A DNA stretch of 35,416 nt, taken from positions 1-35,416 of the IMG/VR virus record IMGVR_UViG_3300048586_000227. One strand, written 5' to 3'. This DNA is from a virus. The notes under the pieces were generated by a model. The model was not told the origin of the DNA, made no database searches, and saw only the letters and a list, made by a program, of their open reading frames with translations. A program made the translations under genes and the position numbers. Positions 6,950 through 30,082 of this stretch are shown here, in pieces. How positions within the stretch are numbered: position 1 is the stretch's first letter; each line of letters opens with the position of its first letter.

Positions 6950-7629
6950 CAGGACTCCTTGCGGGGCAGGCTTGCCCCGTAAACGTGTTGAATGAAATGG
7001 ATTTGACCGGCGCGCAAGTACCCCTTGCAGGCGGGTTTATTGAGGGTTGCGGCAAATACTTGGTGACCCATGTCAATGCGGCCAGCATGCAGGTAGCCCA
7101 CGGCGGGATAGAGCACCTGGAAGCGGTAACGGCGGCAGGTACGGCCGTAGTGCTGGATCAGGGTTTCCATCAGTTGCTGATTGGCGGCCAAGGCGCTGTC
7201 AGCCACCTCGATGGTGATGACGTCCCAGGGGGTAGCGTCTTGGCGTTCATGAAGCTCACACCAGCCGATCCCCAGTCGCTCAAAGATGCGCTTGAAACCG
7301 GCCACTTCGCCGGAGTCCTGGGCGTTGATGAAGGCGTACTTCACCCGCTTGCGGAACAGGTCAAGCGGCTCCCCCTTGAAGCGGGTGATGTCCCGCTCCC
7401 AGGCGATCAGCGCCAGCATGGCTTCCGAGCAGATCATCGGGTCTTGCTGGGTCAGCGGTTGCAGCAGCCAGCCGCGCAGACGGCGCCAGAAGGCCATGAT
7501 GCCTTTGGCCAGGAATGCAGGCTCTTGCACTCCCTCGGCAATGGTCTTTCCGTCTTCCCACCAGGGGGCCGTGCTGTCTGGCAGTTGCGGGGCCTTGTCC
7601 TGGTGGTTTAGCTCGGTGGTCTTAGTCAT
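6949..7629 (-). CDS. Baseplate/tail protein I
   Basis: The 226-residue product lies between baseplate J and the tail fibre, the P2 order J-I-H, and its W/Y/F-rich core fits the P2 gpI tail protein family that bridges baseplate wedge and fibre. The ATG at 7629 is preceded by GGAGG nine bases upstream and overlaps the end of J by 8 bases; an upstream in-frame start at 7650 lacks such a site. It ends in a TGATG overlap with the fibre gene. Confidence 0.72.
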   Translation of the reverse strand: MTKTTELNHQDKAPQLPDSTAPWWEDGKTIAEGVQEPAFLAKGIMAFWRRLRGWLLQPLTQQDPMICSEAMLALIAWERDITRFKGEPLDLFRKRVKYAFINAQDSGEVAGFKRIFERLGIGWCELHERQDATPWDVITIEVADSALAANQQLMETLIQHYGRTCRRYRFQVLYPAVGYLHAGRIDMGHQVFAATLNKPACKGYLRAGQIHFIQHVYGASLPRKES

Positions 7630-8809
7630 GGAGGAACACCTCCAGCGCACTCAGGCGCGGGATGACGAGGCCAGAGACGATATCCAGCTCGGTGAAGTGC
7701 AGGCTCTTTATCTCGCTGAATGCCTGATGAAGCTCGCGGCCAAGCTGGCTCAGTGAAAAGCGGGACTGCGGCCACGCCCGGGTCACTGACGGATAGTCAG
7801 CTGACTGGCGAAAGGCCGCCTTCACCATCAGCTCCACCTCACGTTTGAGTGTCAGCCGCTGTTCGGTGGTCATGTTCTCGGCCGGCCACAGCTCCAGGTG
7901 CAGTGAGTGCTCGGTTTCTGGCATCGCCATCACCTGCAGGTCATCACCGTGGCCGTGGTTACCCTGGGTGCTCACGTAGTCGTTGAGCTTGTCGATCAAG
8001 CTGGCCGGCGTGGTGCCCACCTCCAGCAGGATGAAGGCATTGGCGGTACCCGGGCCCCTCGGTGCGTCATGCTCGAAGAAGATGTGATCGGCACGGATCC
8101 CCGCCACGCTGGCGAGCATGGAGCGATAGATAGCGTCGATGTGATAGCGACCCACCGCCGAGAACTGGTTCTGAATGCGCAGGCCCAAGGCATCATTGCT
8201 CTCGGCATCGGCCCCCTGTGTGGTGACCCAATCGCGGTCGGTGTTGCGTGCTGACAGGATACCGGTCACCGGTTTACTCAGCAGGTTGTAATAACCGGGG
8301 GCCAGATTCCAGGCGCTGCCGGCGAACTCAGCCTCACAGACCACCTTGGCTACGGCCTCACCGGTAGGGCTCACCATTTCCTGCAGTGGGCGCAGGCGAT
8401 AGATGGTGCCGTTGATGCGCTCGGTGGTGATCCAGACATCGGCCGGGATGGTGACGGCCTCGCTCTGGTTGACCTTGATGAAGTTGACTAGGCCCCGGGT
8501 TTTCTGGGCGGCCTTGCGGGTTAGGTCCACATCCCAGGCCTTGAGGTCGAGATAGGTATCGGTGGCGGTCGCGGCAAAGCTGGCTGGCAGCACATGGCCC
8601 GCCAGCAGGGTGCGGATCAGCCAGAGCGCCGGGGTGATGACCACGCCGCGCACCAGGCGCCAGAATGGGGACACATCGCTGTCGTTGGTGATGAGTGACC
8701 CGGCGGCCTCCACCTCTTTCTTGAGCTCGGCCTCCATGGCTGCCTCGGTTGTCGGCACCCCGCTTTTTGCCAGCAGGGCCATAAAATCCACGGTGGGGCG
8801 CAGGTTCAC
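7622..8809 (-). CDS. Baseplate assembly protein J
   Basis: The 395-residue product resembles the Baseplate_J wedge family (P2 gpJ). The N-terminal third ends in the segment VSPFWRLVRGVVITPALWLI, the middle carries a beta-rich region (AVTIPADVWITTERINGTIYRL), and the C-terminus is the mixed domain that joins wedges. It overlaps the upstream W-like gene by ATGA and the downstream I gene by 8 bases, so these wedge proteins are probably made in fixed ratios. Confidence 0.82.
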   Translation of the reverse strand: MNLRPTVDFMALLAKSGVPTTEAAMEAELKKEVEAAGSLITNDSDVSPFWRLVRGVVITPALWLIRTLLAGHVLPASFAATATDTYLDLKAWDVDLTRKAAQKTRGLVNFIKVNQSEAVTIPADVWITTERINGTIYRLRPLQEMVSPTGEAVAKVVCEAEFAGSAWNLAPGYYNLLSKPVTGILSARNTDRDWVTTQGADAESNDALGLRIQNQFSAVGRYHIDAIYRSMLASVAGIRADHIFFEHDAPRGPGTANAFILLEVGTTPASLIDKLNDYVSTQGNHGHGDDLQVMAMPETEHSLHLELWPAENMTTEQRLTLKREVELMVKAAFRQSADYPSVTRAWPQSRFSLSQLGRELHQAFSEIKSLHFTELDIVSGLVIPRLSALEVFLHD

Positions 8810-16455: not shown

Positions 16456-17184
16456 TTATTGCTCCGGATTCAGCGCCCGCAGGCGCATGGCAATCTTTTG
16501 GCGCAAGGTGCCGACGCCCACCTTGCCGTGCAGCTTGTCGGCCTGGGCCAGCCAGTGATCGGCTTGCTCCAGGGTGGCGCTGTCACCCACGGCGCTCGGG
16601 CGGGGCTGACCGTCGTGGTCACGTAGCAGCAGGCAACCGGCGGCCTTGAACCACTTGGCGGTCAACCGCTCGTTGAGGCGCCAGTCATTGCGCACCTTGT
16701 CGAACACCCGGGAGAACCAGGGCTCGACGGCATGACCTTCGGCGGCTTGTTTCTCGGCCCACTCCAGCACGGTGTCGGCCACAAAGTGGGCCCAGTCGCG
16801 CTTGATGTTGTTCGGGGTGCGCTGGCCCTGCGTGATGGCGAGCTCTGCCCAGGCAATGCCTGCGTCGAAATCGCCAACGTCAAAGGCCCAGATGATGAGG
16901 CGCTGAAACAGCTCGTTCTGGTAGGGCTGGCCCGACTCAGCGACAGCAGCCAGATAGCGCTCCACATAGGGGCGGTACTTGGGCATCAGCTCATCGCGTT
17001 TCATGTTCACCCGGTCACCGATGCGAGCCAGTTTGCGCAGCCGGACAATGTCCTGTTCCAGGGCAACCAGTTGCAGGTGCAGGCTGTCAGCCACTGCACC
17101 GGTGGCCATGCCAGAGCAGGCGGCCTGCTCGGCCCCCTGCATGGCTTGAACGCGCTGCTTGTGACGTTGACCGGGTGAGCTCAT
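16456..17184 (-). CDS. Terminase small subunit M
   Basis: The 242-residue protein is close to the length of P2 gpM (~247) and carries its pattern: an N-terminal basic helix (RHKQRVQAMQ), a central helical body (YRPYVERYLAA, LIIWAFDVGDFDAGIAWAELAI) and a Leu-rich end. It binds cos DNA and works with the large subunit P to start packaging. It begins four bases after the capsid gene. Confidence 0.85.
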   Translation of the reverse strand: MSSPGQRHKQRVQAMQGAEQAACSGMATGAVADSLHLQLVALEQDIVRLRKLARIGDRVNMKRDELMPKYRPYVERYLAAVAESGQPYQNELFQRLIIWAFDVGDFDAGIAWAELAITQGQRTPNNIKRDWAHFVADTVLEWAEKQAAEGHAVEPWFSRVFDKVRNDWRLNERLTAKWFKAAGCLLLRDHDGQPRPSAVGDSATLEQADHWLAQADKLHGKVGVGTLRQKIAMRLRALNPEQ

Positions 17185-19293: not shown

Positions 19294-21114
19294 GTGGCGT
19301 ATCCCGAAGAGATCCGCAATGCTGCGCGGGGACTCTACCTTAAGCGATGGACCCCCCAGGAGATCAAGGACGAACTGGGGCTGAACTCCTGCCGCATCGT
19401 CTACTACTGGGCCGAAAAGCTCGGCTGGCGGGATCTGCTTACCGATGAAGCGGTGGAGGATGCCATTGCCCGCCGCCTGCACTCCTTGTTGTGTCGTGAG
19501 AAGAAAACCAGCGCCGAGATGGATGAGATCGACAGGCTGGTCGGCCACCATGTCAGCCTGAAAGAGAAAGCCCTCAAGTGGGCCGAGCGCCAGCAGGCGC
19601 TCACCACCCGCCGCGAAAGTGGTGATGAACCAGCAGCCGACCGGCCGCGCCGTGGCCGAGGCGGCCAGGATAGTGGTAGCAGCAAAGGTAAGGGCGGCAA
19701 GAAGGCCAAGAACGAGGTCGGCCACCTGACAGCCGATGACTTTGCCGAGTGGCTGGGTACCTTGTTTGGCTACCAGCTGCGCTGCCGTGAGGCGAAGAAC
19801 GACCCGGCCTTGCCGCGTACCCGCAACATCTTGAAGTCGCGTCAGGTCGGCATTACCTACTACTTCGCCGGCGAGGCGCTGGAAGATGCGGTGCTGACAG
19901 GTGGCAACCAGATTTTCCTTTCCGCCACCCGCGCCCAGGCGGAGGTGTTCCGCTCCTATATCTGCAAGATTGCCCAGACCTTCCTTGGCGTCACCCTGAC
20001 CGGTAACCCTATTGTGCTGTCGAACGGGGCCGAGCTGCACTTCTGCTCTACCAACTCCAACAGCGCCCAGTCTCGTTCCGGCAACGTTTACATCGACGAG
20101 TACTTCTGGATCCCCAACTTCGAGAAGCTGTCGGACGTGGCCAGCGCCATGGCGACCCAGAGCCGCTGGCGCAAAACCTACTTCTCGACCCCATCGAGCA
20201 AGGTTCACGAAGCGTACCGGTTCTGGACCGGGGATCGCTGGAAGGGTCAGCGCCCGAGCCGTGTGGCCATCGACTTCCCTGGTGAAGATGAGATGCGCGA
20301 TGGCGGTCGGGTCTGCCCCGATCGCCAGTGGCGCTACGTCATCACCATCGAGGATGCCCTACGCCTTGGCTGCAACCTCATAGACATCGAGGAGCTCAAG
20401 GACGAGTACCCGGAGGAGGTGTTCGATCGCCTCTACATGTGCCGGTTTATCGACGATGCCCTGTCGGTGTTCAAGTTCCAGGATATGGAGCGGGCAGGGG
20501 TGGACCCGACCAGGTGGGAGGACTACAAGCCCGGGCGGCCAGACCCATTCGGTCGGCGAGAGGTATGGATGGGCTACGACCCGAGCCGCACTCGCGACAA
20601 CGCCACCCTGGTGGTGGTTGCCCCGCCCACGGTCGCCGGCGAGCGGTTCCGGGTGCTGGAAAAGCACTACTGGCGCGGGCTCAACTTCCAGTATCAGGCG
20701 CAGGAGATCGAGCGGATCGCCAAGAAGTTTCGGGTCACGTATCTGGGGGTCGATGTGTCCGGCATTGGCTCAGGGGTCTATGACCTGCTTAAGCCGGTAT
20801 TCAAAGGGGTGTGCCACCCCATCAACTACAGCATCGAGAGCAAGTCGCGGCTGGTACTCAAGATGATCGACGTAGTGGAGGCCAACCGCATCGAGTGGGA
20901 CAGCTCGGATCGGGATATTCCGCTGGCGTTCCTTGCCATCAAGCGCAGCACCACCGGCGGCGGCCAGATGACGTTCAGGGCTGCCCGAGACAACGTGACC
21001 GGACACGCGGACGTATTTTTTGCCATCGCCCACGCCGTGGCCAATGAGCCGCTCGATACCAACCGCAAACGTAAATCCACCTGGACAACCAGCGAAGTTA
21101 AGAAGGCAGCATGA
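19294..21114 (+). CDS. Terminase large subunit P (ATPase and nuclease)
   Basis: The 606-residue protein starts at GTG with GGAGG upstream. Residues 1-50 are the helix-turn-helix typical of P2 gpP. After a basic, low-complexity linker (~105-142), the ATPase domain shows a Walker A variant KSRQVGIT (181-188) and Walker B VYIDE (265-269). The C-terminal RNase H-like nuclease has acidic residues in GYDPS, GVDVSGIG and GHADVF. It powers DNA packaging and cuts cos with M. It overlaps the next gene by ATGA. Confidence 0.93.
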   Translation: MAYPEEIRNAARGLYLKRWTPQEIKDELGLNSCRIVYYWAEKLGWRDLLTDEAVEDAIARRLHSLLCREKKTSAEMDEIDRLVGHHVSLKEKALKWAERQQALTTRRESGDEPAADRPRRGRGGQDSGSSKGKGGKKAKNEVGHLTADDFAEWLGTLFGYQLRCREAKNDPALPRTRNILKSRQVGITYYFAGEALEDAVLTGGNQIFLSATRAQAEVFRSYICKIAQTFLGVTLTGNPIVLSNGAELHFCSTNSNSAQSRSGNVYIDEYFWIPNFEKLSDVASAMATQSRWRKTYFSTPSSKVHEAYRFWTGDRWKGQRPSRVAIDFPGEDEMRDGGRVCPDRQWRYVITIEDALRLGCNLIDIEELKDEYPEEVFDRLYMCRFIDDALSVFKFQDMERAGVDPTRWEDYKPGRPDPFGRREVWMGYDPSRTRDNATLVVVAPPTVAGERFRVLEKHYWRGLNFQYQAQEIERIAKKFRVTYLGVDVSGIGSGVYDLLKPVFKGVCHPINYSIESKSRLVLKMIDVVEANRIEWDSSDRDIPLAFLAIKRSTTGGGQMTFRAARDNVTGHADVFFAIAHAVANEPLDTNRKRKSTWTTSEVKKAA

Positions 21115-21884
21115 AGAACGATATCAGTCAGTTGACCGAGGAACACTTTCACGAATGGATCAGCACCCTGTTTGGCTACCAGCTGCGCTGCCGTGAGGTC
21201 AAGCTAGACCCGTCACTCGCGCCCATCCGCAACGTTTTGAAGGCTCATCAGGTCGGCATGTCTTATTACTTCGCCGGAGAGGCTTTTGAAGATGCCGTAT
21301 TGACTGGCGACAATCAGATTTTCTTGGCAGAAACCCCAGAGATGGCCGATGTCTACCGGACCTATGTCTGCTTGATAGCAAAGAGGTTCCTCGGCGTTAC
21401 CCTTACCTGCAGCCCCATCGTCCTGTCGAACGGCGCGGAGATCCATTTTCTTTCTCTTGATGACCTGACCTTTGCTGGAAAAGCTGGCCACGTATACGTC
21501 GATGAGTATTTCTGGATTCCTGATTTCGGAAAAGCGCTGCACTTGGCCGGCGCTATGGCTATGCACAAGCGCTGGCGCAAGACCTACTGTTCAACGCTCT
21601 CTGAGCGCCGCGGTATGGCGCGTAACTTCTGGAGCGGGGATCACTGGAAGAACCTGTACCCAGGCCGAGATGCGATCACTTTCCCTAGCGAATCATCGTT
21701 GCGCGATGGCGGCCAGCTTTGTCCCGATCGGCAGTGGCGCTATGTCATCACCATTGAGGATGCCGTTCGACTCGGTTGCAACCTCATGGACATTGATGAG
21801 CTCAAAGACGAGTACTCGCAGGAGGCGTTCAATTTCCTCTTCATGTGCCAATTCAAAGACTCCCAGGAGAGTTCTCTCGCATGA
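21111..21884 (+). CDS. Stand-alone terminase ATPase-domain paralogue (P')
   Basis: The 257-residue product aligns along its whole length with residues ~140-390 of the large terminase just upstream, by eye about 60% identical. It lacks the N-terminal helix-turn-helix and the C-terminal nuclease. Its Walker A is KAHQVGMS instead of KSRQVGIT (the Arg is lost and Thr becomes Ser), while the Walker B VYVDEYFW and the PDRQWRYVITIEDA segment are kept. It begins in an ATGA overlap with P and ends in an ATGA overlap with the portal gene, so it is translationally coupled and not debris. Its function is unknown: packaging regulator, inhibitor or inactive motor subunit are possibilities. Confidence 0.85.
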   Translation: MKNDISQLTEEHFHEWISTLFGYQLRCREVKLDPSLAPIRNVLKAHQVGMSYYFAGEAFEDAVLTGDNQIFLAETPEMADVYRTYVCLIAKRFLGVTLTCSPIVLSNGAEIHFLSLDDLTFAGKAGHVYVDEYFWIPDFGKALHLAGAMAMHKRWRKTYCSTLSERRGMARNFWSGDHWKNLYPGRDAITFPSESSLRDGGQLCPDRQWRYVITIEDAVRLGCNLMDIDELKDEYSQEAFNFLFMCQFKDSQESSLA

Positions 21885-22891
21885 CCAAACAACAGCAACC
21901 GGCCGAGGTGGCCACTCCAACCAAGCCCGGAACGGTAGCGTTCAGCATGCCGGAGGCCATCGACCCCACGGCATGGATGACCGATTACACCGGGGTGTTC
22001 TACAACCCCTATGGCGAGTATTACCAGCCGCCCATCGACCGCAAGGGGCTGGCAAAGGTGGCGCGGGCCAACGCTCACCACGGGGCCATTCTGATGGCGC
22101 GGCGCAATATGGTGGCAGGCCGCTTTACCAATCAGCGCAGCACAGTCACCGCCTTTGCTCACAACTACCTGCAGTTCGGGGATGCGGGCCTGCTCAAGCT
22201 GCGCAACGCCTTCGGCCAGGTGGTCGGGCTGCACCCGCTCTCGAGCGTTTATCTGCGCCGGCGCGAGGATGGCTGCTTTGTTTACCTGCAGCTGGGCAAG
22301 CCGAACCTGATTTACCGGCCGGAGGATGTGATCTGGCTGGCCCAGTACGACCCGGAGCAGCAGGTCTATGGCATGCCTGATTACCTGGGGGGCTTGCAGT
22401 CTGCCCTGCTCAACCAGGACGCCACCCTGTTCCGCCGCAAATACTTCCTCAATGGCGCCCACATGGGGTTCATCTTCTATGCTACCGACCCGAACATGGA
22501 CGATGACACTGAAAAAGAGATGAAGGAGATGATCGCCAACAGTAAGGGGGTAGGTAACTTCCGTTCCATGTTCGTCAATATTCCGGAAGGCAAGCCCGAT
22601 GGCATCAAGCTGATCCCGGTGGGGGATATTGCGACCAAGGACGAGTTCGCAGCCATCAAGGGGATTACCGCCCAGGATGTACTGACCAGCCACCGCTTTC
22701 CTGCTGCGCTGGCCGGCATCATCCCGACCAATGGCGGCGGAGGCCTGGGGGACCCCGAGAAGTACGATGCCACCTACGCCCGCAATGAGGTGCTGCCGCT
22801 GTGTGAGCTGCTGCGGGATTCCATCAATGGGGCTGGTTTACCACGGGCTTTGTGGGTCGATTTTCGGGAAACGATAGGTTCTGCTGTATAA
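21881..22891 (+). CDS. Portal protein Q
   Basis: The 336-residue protein fits the P2 gpQ portal family: an N-terminal PTAWMTDYTGVFYNPYGEYYQPPID, a central LHPLSSVYLRRR, then YGMPDYLGGLQSALLNQDATLFRRKYFLNG and a C-terminal FPAALAGIIPTNGGGGLGDPEKY. The ATG at 21881 has AGGAGA upstream and overlaps the previous stop; an in-frame ATG 36 bases earlier would lie inside the paralogue. It forms the dodecameric vertex through which DNA is packaged. Confidence 0.92.
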   Translation: MTKQQQPAEVATPTKPGTVAFSMPEAIDPTAWMTDYTGVFYNPYGEYYQPPIDRKGLAKVARANAHHGAILMARRNMVAGRFTNQRSTVTAFAHNYLQFGDAGLLKLRNAFGQVVGLHPLSSVYLRRREDGCFVYLQLGKPNLIYRPEDVIWLAQYDPEQQVYGMPDYLGGLQSALLNQDATLFRRKYFLNGAHMGFIFYATDPNMDDDTEKEMKEMIANSKGVGNFRSMFVNIPEGKPDGIKLIPVGDIATKDEFAAIKGITAQDVLTSHRFPAALAGIIPTNGGGGLGDPEKYDATYARNEVLPLCELLRDSINGAGLPRALWVDFRETIGSAV

Positions 22892-23242: not shown

Positions 23243-23674
23243 TTAGTATTGTGACAAGGCTTTTTCTGCCTCGATGTCCTGATCGGCGCATGCCTTGACC
23301 ATGTTCCAACCGAACTTACCCACCCGATTGGCGCAGGAGTTCAGTATCTTCTCGTGCTTCAGGTATTTTTCTGGATTACTTACTATGGCTTGTCGCGCCT
23401 CTATATTTTGGTCTGAGCAGGCTTTAACCATATTCCAGCCAAATTGTTTTGTTGTTTTGATGCAAGACTTGACGATCTTTTCATGTGGCCGATAGTTGGC
23501 TTGTAGCTGTTCATATGCCTCCATATCCTGATCCACACAGGCTTTCACCATAGTGGCTCCGTATTGGTTCATCTGACCTTTACAGCGTTCAATGACGGCG
23601 GCCTTTTCTGTATCACTGATTGCCATTACCGATGAGGTCAGCAACATCATACTGACCGCGACAACTCGCTTCAT
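23243..23674 (-). CDS. Secreted protein with three cysteine-pair repeats (probable moron)
   Basis: The 143-residue product has a clear signal peptide (MKRVVAVSMMLLTSSVMA, predicted cut after residue 18) and a mature part made of three ~40-residue repeats. Each has two cysteines 14 residues apart (31/46, 71/86, 114/129) and the core (F/Y)G-x-x-MVKAC-x-DQ(D/N)(I/M)EA. A disulphide within each repeat is likely in the periplasm. It is transcribed against the late operon beside it, and its base composition is more AT-rich than the structural genes. This is typical of lysogenic conversion cargo. Function unknown. Confidence 0.78.
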   Translation of the reverse strand: MKRVVAVSMMLLTSSVMAISDTEKAAVIERCKGQMNQYGATMVKACVDQDMEAYEQLQANYRPHEKIVKSCIKTTKQFGWNMVKACSDQNIEARQAIVSNPEKYLKHEKILNSCANRVGKFGWNMVKACADQDIEAEKALSQY

Positions 23675-28263: not shown

Positions 28264-29838
28264 TCATGCAGCCACCTCCTGTGCATCGGCGCACATCTCT
28301 GGCAGGTTGGCGCGCACCAAGGCGGCAGCCAGTGGCGGGCACACGGCATTGCCGCAGCGGGCGACTTGCGCAGTCTTTGTGAACTTCTTGCCGTTGGCAT
28401 CGTGGGCGATCACGTAGTCAGCCGGGAAACCCTGAGCCGCGAACAGCTCATGAGGTTCGAGCATCCGCATGCCGATATCGACGATCTGATAATCCTCGCC
28501 GCGCACTGTGACCAGACCGAACCGATCCCGAGTCGTCACGGTATGCAGGGGCTCGGAGCAGGGGATGGTTGAGTCGGTGCCGTAATACTTGAGCAGAAAG
28601 GCCCTCACCTCGCCGATATGCAGCCCGCCAGCGGTGACGGTGGGCATGGGCTCGGTCACCGGTTGGCCGTGCTGGCAGGTACCGCGCAGCTTAATCAGGT
28701 GGCTGGTCACCAGTGCGTTGTGGTCAACGGTGGTCACGGTCGGCAGCGGCTTGGTCAGCTCTGCGCCCACGACGCCGGTGTAATGCTTGGCCAGAAAGGC
28801 GGTTACCAGCTGACTCTTGTCAGCCTTGGCCATGACTGTGCCCAGTGGCTCCTCAACGGATTGACCAACAGATCGGCCAAACTGTCGAGCGATGACCGGT
28901 GACACCAGCGCGAAGTGGCCACCCTTTACCTGGGCGCAGATAGTGCGCAGGGGCTCATTGGCCGGCATGTTGCGCTGATGGCTGGCGTTGGCATGCTCAG
29001 TGATGAAGGGGGCAAGTGCTGAATCCCGGTCAACTGGCACGATGAAAGGCTCGGCGGCATTGATGACGAACCGTTCCAGCCCCTTGGCTATCCGGCGCAA
29101 TGTGTTCTCAGCCAGTGGCCGCTTGCGCTCGAAAATGGAGGGGCACGGGATCGACCAGTCGATGATGTCTGCGGCGGTTTGCCACGGCAGCAGCTTGCCA
29201 GCCTTCACCTCGGCACTGTCTGGCGCGCCATGGGTTGGCTTGGGCCACACGATGGCGGCGCCATCCCGGCGGGCAATCAGGAACAGGCGCTTGCGGATAG
29301 TGGGGGTGCCATAGTCACAGGCGCGCAGCTCGCGCCACTCCACCTTGTATCCCTGGCGGCGCAGCGCATTGATGAAACTGTTGAAGGTGCGGCCCTTCTT
29401 GGCGGGGTCTGGGCGGGCGTTACCTTCTGAGTCAATCAGCAAGGGCCCCCAGGTCTGAAACTCCTCGACGTTCTCCAGCATGATCACCCGGGGGCGAACC
29501 TGGGCCGCCCAGCGCAGGGCAACCCATGCCAAGCCCCGGATCTTCTTGCTGACAGGGGTTGAACCCTTGGCCTTGGAGAAGTGCTTGCAGTCAGGCGACA
29601 GCCAGACCAGCCCGACTTGGCGACCAGCTACCACGTCACGCGGCACGATGTCCCACACCGATTCGCAATAGTGCTCAGTGCTGGGGTGGTTGACGGTGTG
29701 CATGGCGATCGCATCCGGGTCGTGGTTGATGGCGATTTCAGGGCTACGGCCCAATGCCATTTCGATCCCGGTAGAGGCACCGCCGCCACCGGCGAAGTTG
29801 TCGACCACGATCTCGCTGAACAAGTTGAAGTTACTCAT
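28264..29838 (-). CDS. C5 cytosine DNA methyltransferase with internal ~33-residue repeats
   Basis: The 524-residue protein has the C5-methylase motifs: I DNFAGGGGAST (13-23), IV SPDCKHFS with catalytic Cys84, VI ENV (122-124), VIII IRKRLFLIARRDG (~181-193), IX EPHELFAAQGFP and X GNAVCPPLA. Between VIII and IX, where target recognition lies, five copies of (E/K)P(L/M)-x-T(V/I) start with Pro at 296, 331, 364, 397 and 430. No restriction endonuclease is nearby, so self-protection against host restriction is likely. The ATG at 29838 overlaps the upstream gene by 8 bases. Confidence 0.9.
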   Translation of the reverse strand: MSNFNLFSEIVVDNFAGGGGASTGIEMALGRSPEIAINHDPDAIAMHTVNHPSTEHYCESVWDIVPRDVVAGRQVGLVWLSPDCKHFSKAKGSTPVSKKIRGLAWVALRWAAQVRPRVIMLENVEEFQTWGPLLIDSEGNARPDPAKKGRTFNSFINALRRQGYKVEWRELRACDYGTPTIRKRLFLIARRDGAAIVWPKPTHGAPDSAEVKAGKLLPWQTAADIIDWSIPCPSIFERKRPLAENTLRRIAKGLERFVINAAEPFIVPVDRDSALAPFITEHANASHQRNMPANEPLRTICAQVKGGHFALVSPVIARQFGRSVGQSVEEPLGTVMAKADKSQLVTAFLAKHYTGVVGAELTKPLPTVTTVDHNALVTSHLIKLRGTCQHGQPVTEPMPTVTAGGLHIGEVRAFLLKYYGTDSTIPCSEPLHTVTTRDRFGLVTVRGEDYQIVDIGMRMLEPHELFAAQGFPADYVIAHDANGKKFTKTAQVARCGNAVCPPLAAALVRANLPEMCADAQEVAA

Positions 29839-30082
29839 GCGCCGATAGCTCCCTGATGTTGTTCCGGCAGGTGGCCAACGCATGGCGGGCATGCCTCGCC
29901 ATCTTTCTGGCTGCGACACACTGGCGCAGGGTCAGGGAGACCGTGCAGCGTGGGCGAGGGGATAGCCGACGCATTGCCAGTAGGTCGCGCTGATACGAGC
30001 GCAGGCGGGCCTCGTCGCCCATCATGGTGTCGAACCATCTATCCACACGGGTTTGCAGGTCGGAGATCAGGCGGAGGCTCAT
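29831..30082 (-). CDS. Hypothetical small basic early protein
   Basis: The 83-residue protein (MSLRLISDLQTRVDRWFDTMM) is rich in Arg and probably all-helical, with Cys48, Cys57 and Cys73 spread along it. The ATG at 30082 overlaps the upstream stop (ATGA) and GGAGG lies before it as AGGCGGAGG-like sequence on the other strand only, so coupling is the main argument for this start. No family recognised. Confidence 0.55.
   Translation of the reverse strand: MSLRLISDLQTRVDRWFDTMMGDEARLRSYQRDLLAMRRLSPRPRCTVSLTLRQCVAARKMARHARHALATCRNNIRELSAHE

Follow-up and report, generated by a model that had tools for sequence, protein, structure and literature searches.

Large terminase (TerL) motors are treated as homomeric rings, and P2 and HP1 carry a single terminase gene P, as the preliminary description of the locus studied here stated; coliphage 186, PSP3, SW9, EtG, Midge, BIS20 and Yersinia phages, however, have an analogous second gene. 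In 186 this gene, W (NC_001317 / U32222, annotated 'W protein, similar to Orf12'), encodes a stand-alone paralogue of the TerL ATPase domain between the P and Q homologues. Its relatives in the phages just named and in SI22 are 248-254 aa long and ATGA-coupled to Q, and the PSP3 record labels its own copy 'similar to 186 W'. Genes of 186 received their letters through conditional-lethal mutants, and W would accordingly be essential in that phage. In the NC_001317 record (L389:3501-5266), the W tag is attached to two ORFs of 186, that of the stand-alone ATPase and that of the portal, leaving the identity of the genetically defined W ambiguous there. Closer to the present locus is orf phiO18_21 (ABG73173.1) of the Aeromonas phage phiO18P, annotated 'truncated terminase ATPase subunit', for which we found no functional study in the literature searched.

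The window analyzed here, the whole 35,416-nucleotide stretch of IMG/VR record IMGVR_UViG_3300048586_000227, is an Aeromonas P2-like prophage in which a gene that we call P' (21111-21884, plus strand, 257 aa) lies between the genes for the terminase large subunit P (19294-21114, plus strand, 606 aa) and the portal protein Q (21881-22891, plus strand). The terminase small subunit M, the usual partner of P, is encoded at 16456-17184 on the minus strand. The P' frame is open throughout and overlaps both neighbors by ATGA, as had been described: its ATG at 21111 precedes the end of P at 21114, and its own end at 21884 follows the start of Q at 21881. An identity of about 60% to the ATPase domain of the adjoining TerL had been judged by eye, and BLASTP places it at 62% (154 of 249 residues), aligning residues 2-250 of P' to residues 139-387 of P without gaps (E = 2e-117). 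Pfam finds Terminase_5 (helix-turn-helix), Terminase_6N and Terminase_6C (the C-terminal RNaseH-like nuclease) in P; in P', Terminase_6N is the sole domain (2.8e-31; 109.3 bits against a cut-off of 22), bearing out the earlier remark that the protein has neither helix-turn-helix nor nuclease. BLASTP, Pfam and the predicted fold agree in identifying P' as a stand-alone paralogue of the terminase ATPase domain. Elsewhere in the window are a putative C5-cytosine DNA methylase (28264-29919, minus strand; Pfam DNA_methylase, 3.2e-26) and, between an ogr-like gene and a replication gene, a 143-aa protein with a signal-like N terminus (23243-23674, minus strand). The latter has no Pfam match and contains a unit of some 35-40 residues (..FGWNMVKACxDQ.IEA..) in about three repeats.

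A search for homologs at other P-P'-Q loci, which the preliminary description had proposed, returned phiO18P, a Vibrio locus, and W genes of a 186 type and a Yersinia type. The phiO18P protein is 91% identical to P'; its gene likewise lies between P and Q and overlaps each of them by ATGA, and the protein is an ortholog without material difference. The W proteins resemble P' in comprising the ATPase domain only, in their coupled frames, in their presence or absence among near-identical phages and in their purifying selection, but are about 30% identical to it and have a separate origin. The Vibrio PV94-like contig L107 (IMGVR_UViG_2597490196_000004) also carries an ATPase-domain-only copy at the P-Q junction, but one that differs in its separate origin, its Walker A motif (KLRICGLS) and its G+C content (0.386, versus 0.515 for P). 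A 28-bp direct repeat of the L107 P-Q junction, AACAAGGGCAGTTAGCAGCATGACAGAG, flanks P' at 7385-7412 and 8151-8178 and is a possible footprint of insertion; the L107 P' ends out of frame in the second repeat copy. Compared with gpP of P2/HP1-type phages (Peduoviridae), P' has the ATPase-domain sequence and predicted fold in common, but lacks the helix-turn-helix, linker and nuclease and is changed in the Walker-A arginine, the SAxxxQ and TNxxxxQ motifs and the C-motif proline.

In the phage collection, 332 records with a match hold 352 places; by our reckoning, phiO18P, two Yersinia phages and the W genes of Eganvirus make up the surplus of 20. In viral contigs, 186-type W genes occupy 33 loci and Yersinia-type W genes 19, and the 186-type W is found in 8 of 5,426 complete E. 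coli genomes. Already known, then, are the annotated gene of phiO18P and its counterpart W in 186. What is new is that such genes arose repeatedly and independently at one site, together with the common motif losses and the empty-site pairs described below; we found no report of these in a literature search that stopped short of most subscription journals.

From 52 aligned sequences of P', W and P, AlphaFold yields a P' model with a pLDDT of 92.3 and a pTM of 0.90. The best PDB matches of this model in Foldseek are the TerL ATPases of T4 (gp17), P74-26, HK97 and Sf6 (prob 1.00), and the complex of Avs3 bound to a phage terminase (8dgc) is also among its fold matches. By sequence, no solved structure is a convincing relative of P'; on the model, P' is confidently predicted to fold as a TerL ATPase.

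The motifs that are invariant among 242 P proteins are Walker A K, R, Q, G and T, Walker B DE, and the STPS C-motif. Walker A of P' (21240-21263, plus strand) reads KAHQVGMS for KSRQVGIT in the adjoining P, a change already noticed from the letters, where P proteins have KSRQxGxT: Arg46 is R in 242 of 242 P and H in 10 of 11 P', and the threonine is serine in all P' compared (n = 11). This arginine has been proposed as a toggle or sensor for ATP in other TerLs (PMC7617512). Walker B of P' (Asp131-Glu132; 21501-21506, plus strand) is kept, with Gln132 in a single copy, L222. The C-motif (21591-21602, plus strand) is STLS, since Pro163, present in 242 of 242 P, is lost in 11 of 11 P'.

Two further stretches depart from P: residues 73-78 (21327-21344, plus strand) replace the conserved motif SA(S/T)xxQ, and residues 116-122 (21456-21476, plus strand), just before Walker B, replace TNxxxxQ. 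Six residues that are each at least 98% conserved in P (S73, A74, Q78, T116, Q122 and Y171) are lost alike in Aeromonas P', Vibrio P' and W, with the common loss of T116 and Q122 less sure because the alignment is gapped in W around 116-122. Six common losses compare with 0.87 expected, and the associated p of about 1e-4 under independence of columns is a guide only, as columns differ in tolerance. The six fall mostly in two catalytic-edge loops: in the P' model, residues 73-78 follow the strand that comes after the P-loop helix, and residues 116-122 precede the Walker-B strand. Judging from known folds, loops at these positions are where ASCE motors couple ATP to substrate.

Among the groups of stand-alone copies, K44, G49 and E132 are kept in the consensus of all four, and the Walker-A Lys and Gly and the Walker-B DE are kept in 10 of 11 P'. 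Walker A is canonical in the 186 W protein (KSRQIGAT) and reads KSRQIGAD in Yersinia-type W, whose Walker B is GE, the aspartate having been lost. Because catalytic residues are kept by consensus and motor motifs are lost, ATP binding is probable for most P' and W copies; P', Vibrio P' and Yersinia-type W are unlikely to work as motors, and 186 W may still do so. The exceptional P' of L222 (same contig as L085; 5818-6588) carries both K44Q and E132Q in a frame that is still open, with an omega of 0.20 (CI 0.12-0.34) for its pairs. This suggests a function without ATP hydrolysis in that copy, and with the Walker-A Lys and catalytic Glu gone from L222, ATP may not matter in every copy. The best kept segment of Aeromonas P' is at residues ~200-235 (DGGxxCPDRQWRYVITIEDA).

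P' is present in 10 and absent from 48 of 58 distinct Aeromonas-type loci, defined as those with a P at least 85% identical to that of the window. A clean empty site is found in contig L169, which matches the window at 94.7% identity over the P stretch and at 94.3% from Q onward (99% for the P protein), and whose sole difference at the junction is exactly P'. The junction is empty in the same way in A051 and on a Serratia plasmid. PV94 is likewise an empty-site relative of L107 (backbones 95-96% identical), and the Salmonella phage SEN1 lacks W while being 97-99% identical to the W-bearing SW9. phiO18P (DQ674738, P' present) and A051 (OP484843, P' absent), both of the genus Bielevirus, form a natural pair for experiments.

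Every stand-alone copy is located at the P-Q junction. No insert other than P' was seen there among 244 distinct loci, with a junction estimate that was negative in part of the Pseudomonas loci, and we reject the idea that the junction is a general cargo hotspot. We also found no residue of P or Q fixed with the presence of P', and hence no fixed compensatory change in either protein; positions adjoining the junction are among those that differ most strongly in frequency. Patchy presence, empty-site relatives and the absence of fixed changes in P and Q together suggest that P' is optional, and the basic packaging reaction apparently does not strictly depend on it.

Maximum-likelihood analysis of the ATPase domain groups the Aeromonas P' proteins in a single clade next to Aeromonas-type P and puts the Vibrio P' among PV94-type P. 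A single clade of Aeromonas and Vibrio P' is rejected (AU p = 0.0009). When W is added, the 186-type and Yersinia-type proteins form a third clade; uniting all stand-alone copies in one clade is rejected (AU p = 0.008), in a tree with long branches, those of L107 and W in particular. These trees point firmly to two origins of the stand-alone ATPase gene and make a third likely (Aeromonas P', Vibrio PV94-like P' and enterobacterial W), the count of three being model-dependent because of the long branches. The AU tests reject the spread of one mobile P' cassette between Aeromonas and Vibrio phages. Judged by the trees, P' and 186 W are not orthologs and are alike in function at most; with independent origins, a common function is not required of them.

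The preliminary description had taken P' for a selected tandem duplication. Its first half stands: P' is a duplicate of the ATPase domain with a dN/dS of 0.17, and 10 of 10 distinct Aeromonas copies are intact. The tandem part holds only partly: in the tree, the Aeromonas P' is placed next to the entire clade of Aeromonas-type P, it resembles the P of its own phage no more than it resembles P from other phages, and its presence is patchy. On this evidence of tree and distribution, P' is an old duplicate whose present behavior is that of an accessory cassette. Ongoing gene conversion of P' by the local P is rejected as well, there being no excess similarity to the P of the same phage.

Codon comparisons indicate that P' and W are under purifying selection. 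Omega is 0.172 for Aeromonas P' (95% bootstrap CI 0.125-0.238), 0.157 for 186-type W (0.101-0.232) and 0.252 for Yersinia-type W (0.176-0.362), values 3-9 times higher than those of P in the corresponding phages (0.03-0.05). All sampled copies, W included, have intact ORFs, and the G+C content of P' and W is lower than that of their own P in all families compared. Decayed copies only, or a dN/dS near 1, had been named as the marks of duplication debris; we found neither, and the dN/dS between P' homologs is well below 1.

We favor, with a probability of about 0.45, a reading in which P' is an accessory terminase paralogue, ATP-binding but non-translocating, that is co-translated with P and Q and modulates the motor of its own phage. 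Derived from the ATPase domain of P, it would probably have retained ATP binding and would have lost residues that likely couple ATP hydrolysis to DNA translocation. Translational coupling in the P-P'-Q operon would have P' made alongside motor P and portal Q, and it may join or dock onto P, the portal or both as a non-translocating subunit. Mixed rings with P, a placeholder bound to the portal and interference with competing phages had been put forward as candidate functions in the preliminary description. Once docked, P' could modulate packaging by its own phage, affecting start, pausing, stability or selectivity. What favors a co-assembling accessory subunit is that the gene lies between P and Q, that its translation is coupled to theirs and that the fold has been retained. 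Given near-isogenic phages without P' or W and the lack of fixed residues in P and Q, a dedicated motor partner would nevertheless have to be optional. The canonical Walker A of 186 W and the losses in L222 also count against a uniform model of a non-translocating ATP-binder.

P' and W could instead be dominant-negative pieces of terminase that poison the motors of co-infecting phages or terminase-borrowing satellites and give their own phage an edge in mixed infections. The accessory pattern (10 of 58 Aeromonas-type loci), the empty-site relatives, the raised omega, the G+C content below that of P, and the loss of motor motifs with the fold kept would all suit such a role. We nonetheless consider it rather unlikely: P' sits inside the late operon, where expression in a quiet lysogen is not expected from what applies to late-gene control in P2 and 186; it is at least as similar to its own P as to the P of rivals, which brings a risk of self-poisoning; and it has no match among the known anti-phage defense proteins of PADLOC-DB.

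Another role, which we regard as unlikely, is that of a chaperone or placeholder, in which P' would bind the portal or the nuclease or ATPase of P, time motor docking or nuclease activation, and then leave. The coding position exactly between P and Q, the translational coupling and the well-kept segment at residues ~200-235 fit this role too, but sequence hardly separates it from the accessory-subunit model.

It is more doubtful that P' and W act as decoys, occupying bacterial receptors of the Avs/NLR type that recognize TerL and so protecting the phage. The Avs3-terminase complex among the fold matches of P' is in keeping with such a role, as is the accessory, fast-evolving and recurrent pattern of the gene. 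A TIR-NLR system protected against the P2-like phages of one panel (Fig. 6A: P2 and four new isolates), with no defense detected against 186cIts (PMC9122126); W is present in 186 and absent from P2. This contrast is, however, a correlation over a handful of phages, the link of TIR-NLR to terminase is presumed, and a TerL-like fold could trigger a receptor rather than block it. Finally, duplication debris that stays open by chance is very improbable and we reject it: constraint on P' is relaxed compared with P and L222 has lost its Walker-A Lys and catalytic Glu, but the omega interval excludes 1, a neutral copy would lack a stop with a chance of about 0.002 at a divergence of 0.34, every sampled copy is intact, and independent origins have the same boundaries and common motif losses.

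That an ATPase domain, probably dead as a motor, has been kept by selection repeatedly and convergently, exactly between the genes for motor and portal, points either to a genuine accessory subunit of the motor or to a weapon or shield directed at terminase. Coliphage 186 is tractable in the laboratory and its close relative SEN1 has an empty site, which makes the question directly testable. Some P2-like phages may, as a tentative extension, possess a heteromeric motor or a motor-directed switch, in which an ATP-binding but non-translocating paralogue, built in or docked, would tune the motor or shield the terminase from immune sensors.
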